Source of the DNA: Hyphomicrobiales bacterium
GTDB lineage: Bacteria > Pseudomonadota > Alphaproteobacteria > Parvibaculales > Parvibaculaceae
Assembly: GCA_016124805.1 (NCBI GenBank)
Contig: WGND01000003.1
Location: 310,001-374,000 of the forward strand
Length of the DNA: 64,000 nucleotides
Direction of reading: 5' to 3'
In this document: positions 10,400 through 13,417 of the stretch, in pieces
Layout: each line of letters opens with the position of its first letter
How positions within the stretch are numbered: position 1 is the stretch's first letter
The notes under the pieces: generated by a model
What the model was told of the DNA's origin: nothing
The model's database searches: none
What the model saw: only the letters and a program-made list of their open reading frames with translations
Position numbers and translations under genes: made by a program

Positions 10400-11176
10400 T
10401 CAGGGTGCCTTGTTTTCGATGAGGCGGTTGCCGCCATCGACCACCAGCACTTCGCCCGTTATGTAGCTTGCCTGCGGGGAAGCGAGAAAGGCGACGGCGG
10501 CGGCGACTTCGGCTGGATGGCCGGCTCGCTGCATGGGCGTGTATTTGCCGGCCAGGCGTTCTTCATCGGTGCTGGAGGCCGTCTCAATCCATCCCGGGGC
10601 GACGCAATTTGCCGTGATGCCATGTGTTGCTGTCTCCAGTGCCAGGCTTTGCGTCATGCCAACCATGCCCGCCTTGGCCGCACCATAGGCAGCTTCGCCC
10701 GGATTGCTGCCGCTCGTGCCCGTGGTCGATGAGATGTTGATGATGCGGCCATAGCCACGCGCCTTCATGCCAGGCAGGACTGCGCGTGTCATGAGGAAGG
10801 CCGAGGTCAGGTTGCGATTGAGCGAGAGCATCCAGTCTTTAAGGGCCATGCCGTCGATTTCGGCGAAGGGTTCCGGGCTGCCGAGCTGGGCCATGCCGGC
10901 ATTGTTGACCAGAATGTCGATGCGTCCCGCCTTTGCTTCGGCCGCTGTGAAGAGAGACCTTACGTCGCTTTCACTTGTCAGATCGCCGATATGACCGAAG
11001 GCCTCAATATCCCGTTTGCGCAGCTCTTCCACGCGTTCGTGAATGCGATCCGTCGTGGCGCAGATGTGGACGAGGCAGCCTGCTTCGCCAAGCGCCAGCG
11101 CGATGGCAAAGCCGATGCCGTGGGAGCTCCCGGCGCCGGTCACAAGGGCAATCTGGGGCGTGGGCGCAATGATCAT
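10400..11176 (-). CDS. Short-chain dehydrogenase/reductase (FabG-like)
   Basis: This 258-residue NAD(P)-dependent oxidoreductase has the Rossmann motif [13 protein letters not shown] (TGxxxGxG, with two extra residues), LVNNAGMA, the catalytic Ser in ISSTTGTS, and YGAAK with the catalytic Tyr and Lys. The C-terminal [14 protein letters not shown] matches FabG-type SDRs. Its real substrate is unknown; 3-oxoacyl or a generic alcohol/ketone is possible. It is convergent with the acyltransferase gene and divergent from the small secreted protein gene at 11304. Confidence 0.9.
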
Positions 11177-11303
11177 AATGTTCTCTCATTCGGACAGGAG
11201 GAAGTGGCCCCAAATCTGCATTTCACCATTTGTGAAATTGAATCTGGTGCTCAACCTATCGCTTTGCGCCGTTTTGAAACAGCTATGATTGGGGAACTGA
11301 CGG

Positions 11304-11489
11304 ATGACTAAATTTATGACGGGCAAATGGCTGACATTGGGTGGTCTCGCTGCGATTGTCAGCGTTGCCCTGCTTTATGCTTTCCTGACAGCGACGCCGG
11401 CGCTTGCCTGCGATGCGGGCGGTGATGGCGGATCCGGCGGCTGGTATTCTCCCGTCCAGACCATCTGGGACATTCTCTGGCCCTGGTAA
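11304..11489 (+). CDS. Small secreted protein with Gly- and Trp-rich mature part
   Basis: The 61-residue product has a clear Sec signal peptide: GKWLTLGG, then a hydrophobic core to about residue 30, then ATPALA before Cys36. Cleavage after ALA would leave a 26-residue mature peptide starting CDAGGDGG and ending in a Trp-rich, membrane-seeking tail (WYSPVQTIWDILWPW). The ALAC junction lacks a normal lipobox, because Leu is at -2 and Ala at -3. GGGGAA precedes the ATG. The gene 130 bp downstream carries almost the same leader but an unrelated mature part. No function is known; a bacteriocin-like or surface peptide is conceivable. Confidence 0.65.
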   Translation: MTKFMTGKWLTLGGLAAIVSVALLYAFLTATPALACDAGGDGGSGGWYSPVQTIWDILWPW

Positions 11490-11620
11490 GGTGATTGAGC
11501 TCCTTCTCTTGCGGGGGAAGGGGCATCGATCCTGCAAGGCAAGACGCTGAATGGTTCTCGCAGCCGCTGTGCCTATCGGCCTGTGTCAGAACGAAACGAT
11601 TTGGTTACAGGATGAGACAG

Positions 11621-11923
11621 ATGAAGACATATCTGAGCGGCAAGTGGATGACACTGGGTGGCCTTGCGGGTCTCATGGGTGCCGGTCTTCTCTATGCATT
11701 TCTCACGGCGAGCCCGGCTCTGGCCTGCGATATTGGCGATGCGAATTACAACTTCAATTCCAACGCCAATTATAATTACAACTCGAATTACAATTCGAAT
11801 TCCAATGAGAACAGCAATGTGAATTCGAATGAGTATGGTTCGACGAATAATTATGAGAATAATAACAGCGCCACGAACACCTACAGCGTCACCAATACGC
11901 TGCGTGAAACTGTCACAAAATAG
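11621..11923 (+). CDS. Small secreted protein with alternating Asn repeat
   Basis: The 100-residue product shares its leader with the gene upstream (SGKWMTLGGLA, LLYAFLTASPALACD). The leader is followed by an extraordinary mature region in which every even residue from 42 to 70 is Asn (15 X-Asn dipeptides, X mostly Tyr or Ser). After that comes a looser Asn/Thr/Ser stretch ending in TLRETVTK. Cleavage after ALA35 would leave Cys36 as the first residue. The ATG at 11621 is preceded by AGGAT; ATG 11612 is the alternative. The pattern would put all Asn on one face of a beta strand, as in amyloid or beta-solenoid ladders. The function is unknown. Confidence 0.7.
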   Translation: MKTYLSGKWMTLGGLAGLMGAGLLYAFLTASPALACDIGDANYNFNSNANYNYNSNYNSNSNENSNVNSNEYGSTNNYENNNSATNTYSVTNTLRETVTK

Positions 11924-11926
11924 GCG

Positions 11927-13417
11927 TCAGTTTTTCTTGACGATGATGGACATCAATTTCTCGTCGAGTTGAAAAGACTCGGCGAGTTTTCGTTTGAGAA
12001 TTTTTCCACCGGCGTTTCGCGGCAGTTCGTCGAGAATGCTGATGGCTTTGGGGCCGCGCGCGCCGATCTGTTCGCTGCAATATTCAATGAGTGCCATCTC
12101 GCTGACCGGCTTTCTCAACACAACGGCCGCAACGGGCAGATGATGGAATATATGCGCATCAATGGGAAAAGCGGCGGCTGCGACAACGGCAGGATGCCTT
12201 TCCAGCGCGATTTCGATCTCGCGCGGATAGATGTTCATGCCGTTATAGATCATCATGTCGTCTGAGCGCCCCTTGAAGATCAGCACGTTGTCCGGCGTCA
12301 GCAGGCCCGTGTCGCCGGGATAGTACCAGCCATTTTTTAGCGCCTTTGCCGTTGCTTCCTCGTCGCCGTAGTAGCCTGGAAAAATGGTTCCGGTCTTGAT
12401 GCGCACATGGCCAATTTCATTGGGTGGCAGAGGTTTGTCATTGTCATCAACAATTTCCAGCGTGACGCCGGGGCAGGGCGCGCCCACGCAACCGGGATTG
12501 GCATCCTGCATGGCGGGCGGGGCGGCGGTTGTCTCACCATATTCATTTGCGCCATAGACAACTGTCAGGTTGGGACTGATCCGCTCCCGGAAATTCTTTC
12601 GCAACTCCTCGCTCACGGGCGAACCGCCGATGAGGGCCGTTTTCAGATCGGGCAGTCGGACCCCCTGACTGTCTGCGGGGACACCGCCCAACATGATTTC
12701 GGCAAAGAGGGGCACGAGGGAAAGATGATCCACACCCATAAAATCACAGAAGGAGAGGAAGGAGCTTTTCTCGTCATCGCGAAAGGCGCTTGCCGCGCCC
12801 ACCGCAATGCCATTGAGACAGCGTCGATGTGCTGTGTAAAAAGAAATGGGGGAAGGGGAAAACTGACGCTCCCCCGGCAGCAGCGGGCGTGTGGCTTCGT
12901 CACGTGGCTTGATATCGAGATAGGCGGTTGTGTTGACGGGAATGAGTTTGGAATTTCCTGTCGTGCCGGACCCGGCAATCAGCATATAGGGCGCGTCAGG
13001 CGCAACATGCCGCAGAGAGGTGTCGACGGGGTTTCTCATTTCCGCAAAGGTTTTGTAAGTCACTAAATGCGCCGGCACACCCGCTTTCGAAATCTTGTTG
13101 TTGTCGCCAAAAATCATCGTGACGCCGGCTTTTTGAATGCCTTCGCGCAGCGAAAATGTCGTGGTGTTTTTGGAGAAGGCAATCTGGATGGCGCCTATGC
13201 GGATAGCGGCCAGTGATGCTGCCAGATGCGGTATTTCGCGCAGGAACAGAAAGCCGATCACCTGTCCCGGCTTTACGCCGAGTTCGCGCATATGCATGGC
13301 GATCTGCCAGACCGTATGTTCGAGTGATTCAAATGATACAGCGCGCAAGGGTGAGATCGCTGCCAATCCATGGGGCCGCGTCCGGGATGTTTGTGTCAGA
13401 AAATCAGCGATATTCAT
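11927..13417 (-). CDS. AMP-dependent acyl-CoA synthetase/ligase
   Basis: This 496-residue adenylate-forming enzyme activates a carboxylic acid as acyl-AMP and then as the CoA thioester. The P-loop is present as LIAGSGTTGNSKLIP. The A5-type motif is VVYGANEYGE, the A7/A8 motifs are YYPGDTG and FKGRSDDMMIYNGMNIYPREIE, and the C-terminal catalytic Lys lies in GGKILKRKL. The N-terminal domain is slightly shorter than in many fatty-acyl ligases. It is convergent with the Asn-rich protein gene. The substrate, probably a fatty or aromatic acid, cannot be told from sequence alone. Confidence 0.88.
   Translation of the reverse strand: MNIADFLTQTSRTRPHGLAAISPLRAVSFESLEHTVWQIAMHMRELGVKPGQVIGFLFLREIPHLAASLAAIRIGAIQIAFSKNTTTFSLREGIQKAGVTMIFGDNNKISKAGVPAHLVTYKTFAEMRNPVDTSLRHVAPDAPYMLIAGSGTTGNSKLIPVNTTAYLDIKPRDEATRPLLPGERQFSPSPISFYTAHRRCLNGIAVGAASAFRDDEKSSFLSFCDFMGVDHLSLVPLFAEIMLGGVPADSQGVRLPDLKTALIGGSPVSEELRKNFRERISPNLTVVYGANEYGETTAAPPAMQDANPGCVGAPCPGVTLEIVDDNDKPLPPNEIGHVRIKTGTIFPGYYGDEEATAKALKNGWYYPGDTGLLTPDNVLIFKGRSDDMMIYNGMNIYPREIEIALERHPAVVAAAAFPIDAHIFHHLPVAAVVLRKPVSEMALIEYCSEQIGARGPKAISILDELPRNAGGKILKRKLAESFQLDEKLMSIIVKKN

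Follow-up and report, generated by a model that had tools for sequence, protein, structure and literature searches.

A pair of adjacent tiny genes, here called A and B, raises the question of why two predicted secreted proteins should begin alike and continue differently. They lie in the window, by which we mean the whole 64,000-nucleotide stretch of DNA that was analysed. The initial annotation had noted two neighbouring reading frames with a gapless common leader ending ALA|C in both, as we also find, and had proposed either a dedicated export or processing route that uses the leader, or a tandem duplication with replacement of the C-terminal part.

The gene pair, its family and its origin

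Genes A and B stand isolated, with about 130 bases between the stop of A and the start of B. On one side is a divergent gene at 10400-11176 (-), which from its sequence we take to be SDR-like, and on the other a gene at 11927-13417 (-), which we likewise take to be AMP-ligase-like. We place the start of B at the ATG at 11621, with the ATG at 11612 as a possible alternative; the start at 11495 in the list of open reading frames is a mechanical extension only and was discarded. Neither product matched a family in Pfam, in NCBIfam (E<=0.01) or in PHROGs. Between 8048 and 11176 of the window, three genes that we presume to be sulfotransferase-like, acyltransferase-like and SDR-like separate the tRNA-Met region from A and B, and these are absent from this place in several relatives.

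Features of the A/B locus, in window coordinates
Feature	Position	Strand	Description
Sigma54-type box of A	11205..11219	+	TGGCCCCAAATCTGC; weaker; as far from the Cys codon as is usual in the family
Second element of A	11265..11281	+	TGCGCCGTTTTGAAACA
Gene A	11304..11489	+	61 aa: signal peptide and 26-aa mature part CDAGGDGGSGGWYSPVQTIWDILWPW
Leader of A	11304..11408	+	35 codons, ends ALA|C
Sigma54-type box of B	11520..11538	+	-24/-12 type, GGGGCATCGATCCTGCAAG
Second element of B	11582..11598	+	conserved, imperfect dyad, TGTGTCAGAACGAAACG
Gene B	11621..11923	+	100 aa: signal peptide and 65-aa Asn-alternating mature part
Leader of B	11621..11725	+	35 codons, ends ALA|C
Mature B	11726..11920	+	Cys, Asn-x-Asn-x tract, divergent C-terminal motif; SVTNTLRETVTK

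Among 61 genomes searched, relatives of B turned up in 24 of the 27 Parvibaculum genomes (g1), the three others being 57-83% complete. In each member a signal peptide is followed by an AxA|Cys junction and an Asn-x-Asn-x tract; most then close with a short C-terminal motif, commonly like SVTIRxSVSG, which is lacking in G015 and G019. Mature parts range from 37 to 75 residues (the 75 belonging to L080, for which the Cys was wrongly assigned) and have a single Cys after AxA, invariant in 22 aligned rows; the placing of Asn at i,i+2 exceeds 500 of 500 shuffles in all 24 proteins. The G015 gene (L063:9681-9956) stops early, before the usual C-terminal motif. The family sits mostly between a block that we take to comprise mnmA, a methyltransferase and tRNA-Met, and a presumed pseudouridine-synthase gene; given this largely constant site, it appears to be vertically inherited rather than mobile. 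When the B profile was searched across the class, matches were found in 8 of 387 genomes, and those outside the family were confined to G210 and G313, in longer proteins aligned on the Asn-tract part of the profile. Among the papers listed on Parvibaculum in connection with CsgG, curli, holdfast, HfaB or asparagine-rich proteins, none dealt with the family or described an HfaB system in Parvibaculum. The B family is an undescribed Parvibaculum family.

The gap-free alignment of the two leaders has 23 identities in 36 residues through the Cys, a likeness equalled in none of 20,000 shuffles and also seen as a profile match (E = 5.9e-13). The mature parts have only C-D-x-G in common, and 102 of 2,000 shuffles score equally. 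The initial description of them as unrelated thus stands for A against B and fails for the family, since the mature start of A, CDAGGDGGSGGWYS, matches that of the B-family protein of Parvibaculum G004, CDAGGGGGGAWNS (0 of 2,000 shuffles), as well as that of G019 (5 of 2,000), all three beginning Cys-Gly-Trp. Upstream, a GG-N10-GC box lies at -207 in A and -205 in B, counted from about the Cys codon, and is followed 59-60 bases downstream by the second element in both. The shared leader and these two elements at matching places make the tandem duplication foreseen by the initial annotation well supported: A is an old tandem copy of B with its own diverged promoter. The genus-wide B would be the source from which A took its leader and promoter region, and A would have retained the Cys-Gly-Trp start but be without the Asn tract, whether by loss or from the beginning. 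Synonymous change between the two leaders approaches saturation (pS 0.72) at a dN of 0.22, which argues that the duplication is old and that the leader of A is under purifying selection, and hence that A is a genuine gene. At similar dS, the orthologous leaders of L076/L086 have a dN of 0.26, so that neither extra constraint nor recent exchange need be invoked. A was found in the window's own genome only, 1 of the 27 of Parvibaculum; absence of one partner elsewhere had been named at the outset as evidence against a special role for the leader. The tail of A resembles g3 peptides such as SWSWDWYWSY (4 to 25 of 2,000 shuffles, with biased composition), a likeness only suggestive of homology.

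A shared promoter-type box and the HfaB-type channel

The initial annotation had advised looking for further genes with this leader. A profile of 22 family rows, A included, matched a protein, LONG, in many other Parvibaculum genomes over the leader and Asn tract (best E 1.7e-13), and also short leader peptides in all seven g3 genomes and one of two g5 genomes; the five that were read (four g3, one g5) are all Cys-Gly-Trp peptides. A further small leader peptide, CTPGGGKVGSLLDLVGKLLGR, is encoded in G001 (L068:9348-10981) about 0.5 kb from a gene that we take to be csgH-like and a divergent curlin pair, a placement that may be chance. LONG is Asn-rich, about 270-380 aa long, with a leader related to those of A and B. 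It is itself undescribed (L139-L155, L159-L178) and has a conserved Cys-containing C-terminal domain ending GGVGY; LONG of G014 had no Pfam match, and an AlphaFold model of the C-terminal part was poor (mean pLDDT 49).

Within the order, LONG is present in 35 of 40 genomes, the window's included, and a CsgG-family gene in 36. In 31 of the 35 the two share a contig within about 10 kb, and the remaining four (the window's genome, G008, G021 and G026) have them on separate contigs. The conserved neighbourhood comprises Peptidase_C93, PilZ, a PAS_5 gene (weakly MopJ-like, below cut-off) and the CsgG-family gene, whose product passes the NCBIfam HfaB cut-off of 300 in G014 (393 bits), in the window's genome (366 bits) and likewise in G028. 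LONG relatives were matched in five families outside that of Parvibaculum, with an HfaB-type gene nearby in 7 of 11 loci fetched; the stretch fetched held no HfaB at four f5 loci. LONG and CsgG were not found in G015 (91% complete), although its B-family gene is present. Two g4 genomes have HfaB and LONG with no small protein found.

The same type of box precedes several of these genes. Our strict pattern, GGCAY-N6-TGC, was defined after the B and LONG boxes had been seen; its independent tests are those on hfaB, PAS_5, curlin and neighbour genes, with search windows of unequal length. Against a background of 95 occurrences in 1,106,042 strand-bases (0.011 per 130 nt), it lies upstream of all 24 B-family genes, of 17/20 LONG genes (L161 among these, at an unusual position; L159, L160 and L162 have a TTTCGC variant), of hfaB in 11 of 14 loci, and of 10/18 PAS_5 genes. 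It precedes none of 22 curlin genes, and few control neighbours (PilZ 1/17, Peptidase_C93 1/19, GMC 0/19, DsbA-like 1/19, TetR 0/15). In other families, a good box is found upstream of an HfaA-like gene adjoining hfaB and of a PAS_5 gene. The box of A fails the strict pattern, matches a relaxed one, and is nearer to the flagellin boxes TGGCCCG-N4-TTGC. From the motif, GG-N10-GC with conserved flanks at a fixed place, we take the boxes to be putative sigma54 (RpoN) promoters, from which A and B would be transcribed. A gene for RpoN, rpoN, was found in 37 of 40 genomes. The second element has a dyad axis, with 66.7% of cells paired against at most 38.1% when slid. A reading of it as an RNA hairpin gains no support from covariation, which does not exceed shuffles (117/500). 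In Parvibaculum flagellin genes (L089-L118), GGCA-N5-TGCC dyads lie upstream of the sigma54-type box and are possible activator sites.

On balance, we think that A and B may well be small Sec-exported surface proteins of an HfaB/sigma54 adhesion regulon, acting like HfaA. Sec would export them, signal peptidase I would cleave them at AxA|Cys, and they would then leave through, or assemble at, the cell's single HfaB/CsgG-type outer-membrane channel, where LONG, encoded beside hfaB, would join them. They would work as small surface-anchor or amyloid-like adhesion proteins, like HfaA of Caulobacter; more speculatively, the alternation would have the Asn residues all facing the same way in a beta strand, with the lone N-terminal Cys as a possible cross-link between subunits. 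Since A and B lie near neither hfaB nor LONG (contig C7, with hfaB on C8), their connection to hfaB is drawn from leader, promoter type and co-occurrence.

That same distance would suit an alternative in which a small periplasmic or secreted protein with no tie to HfaB was simply duplicated in tandem, its box reflecting co-expression with motility or nitrogen genes, as would the sigma54-type box at 11 of 12 aligned flagellin loci and the relatives of fliF, flgD and fliK found 5-10 kb upstream in many genomes. We consider this unlikely, though worth keeping in mind, because LONG, which adjoins hfaB, has the same box family and leader, because hfaB itself carries the box, in the window's genome too, and because CsgG, LONG and the small proteins were all not found in g2. 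The flagellar regulon as a home for B was set aside: the second element of B was not seen at flagellin genes, and the B box fits hfaB and LONG better.

The invariant cysteine and the leader

In every member the residue right after the cleavage motif is a Cys, which could be taken for the lipidated residue of a lipoprotein. The residue at -3 is Ala and that at -4 usually Pro, a pattern more in keeping with a signal peptidase I site than with a lipobox, and we regard lipidation as quite improbable.

The initial annotation treated the conserved leader as a special feature. In three divergent pairs of B orthologues (L070/L081, L087/L088 and L076/L086) the leader in fact changes faster than the mature part, with identities of 16/34 (leader) against 40/45 (mature), 24/35 against 38/40, and 24/39 against 42/51; the exception is L063/L064 (40/54 against 23/35, as protein identity). 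The very close pairs L071/L073, L074/L079, L074/L077 and L075/L082 carry little information on leader rate, and L072/L080 was left out, a wrong Cys having been assigned in L080. The leader shared by A and B is an ordinary signal peptide. A dedicated route with recognition of the leader itself would account for related leaders on B, A, LONG, the G001 peptide and the short g3 and g5 peptides, yet with the leader the faster part in three of four divergent pairs and no recurrent maturation gene adjoining the B-family gene, such a route is very improbable indeed. What survives of the proposed export route comes from elsewhere, from the promoter type shared with the HfaB/CsgG-type channel gene and from the related leader of LONG. 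Judged by its leader the locus is ordinary; its greater interest is that it directs attention to tiny, Asn-rich secreted proteins, an undescribed set associated with HfaB.

Comparison with RiPPs, curli and HfaA

Polytheonamide-type RiPPs have an alternating Asn pattern resembling that of B; A and B differ in that their leader is of Sec type and their genes have no recurrent maturation-enzyme neighbours.

Curli (CsgA/B/G; PMC3521004, PMC6957492) offer a parallel in their CsgG-family channel and small Asn-rich, Gly-rich substrates. The differences are that A, B and LONG contain no curlin repeat (PF07012), of which there was no match anywhere in the window's genome, that no CsgF was found in 40 genomes, and that Parvibaculum curlin genes lack the box. 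True curlin genes occur in 16 of the 40 genomes, all Parvibaculum (16/27), mostly as divergent pairs (L226-L240); without the box they form a separate set, which may or may not use the same channel.

A further comparison is with HfaA, HfaB and HfaD of Caulobacter crescentus, where PMC6707917 names HfaA and HfaD as partners of HfaB, the presumed exporter of surface anchor proteins. Common to both are a channel assigned to the HfaB family by NCBIfam and small secreted partner proteins, and hfaA of other alphaproteobacteria also has this box upstream. They differ in that A and B match no HfaA model and are encoded elsewhere on the chromosome rather than beside hfaB, and in that LONG matches no model. 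HfaA-like proteins elsewhere do pass the NCBIfam HfaA model (73 and 61.5 bits, cut-off 50). Of the family's 20 LONG loci, two (both in g4) have such a gene, as do five loci outside the family; none was seen in the 18 non-g4 LONG loci. Searches turned up the small Cys proteins in g1, g3 and g5 and not in g4 or g2, a complementary pattern that, with g4 represented by two genomes and HfaA looked for at LONG loci, suggests replacement, A and B possibly standing in for HfaA. The fuller version is tentative and, to our minds, doubtful: in Parvibaculum and close relatives, HfaA would have been replaced by tiny HfaB-secreted proteins that assemble with LONG into a sigma54-controlled holdfast anchor, one of them an amyloid with an Asn ladder and a lone Cys as its N-terminal cap, the other a Gly/Trp-rich peptide. 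The box, leader and Asn pattern shared across the hfaB-linked set point to further, very simple HfaB substrates, and A, B and LONG would provide a compact model for substrate choice by a CsgG-type channel and for the assembly of Asn-alternating peptides.
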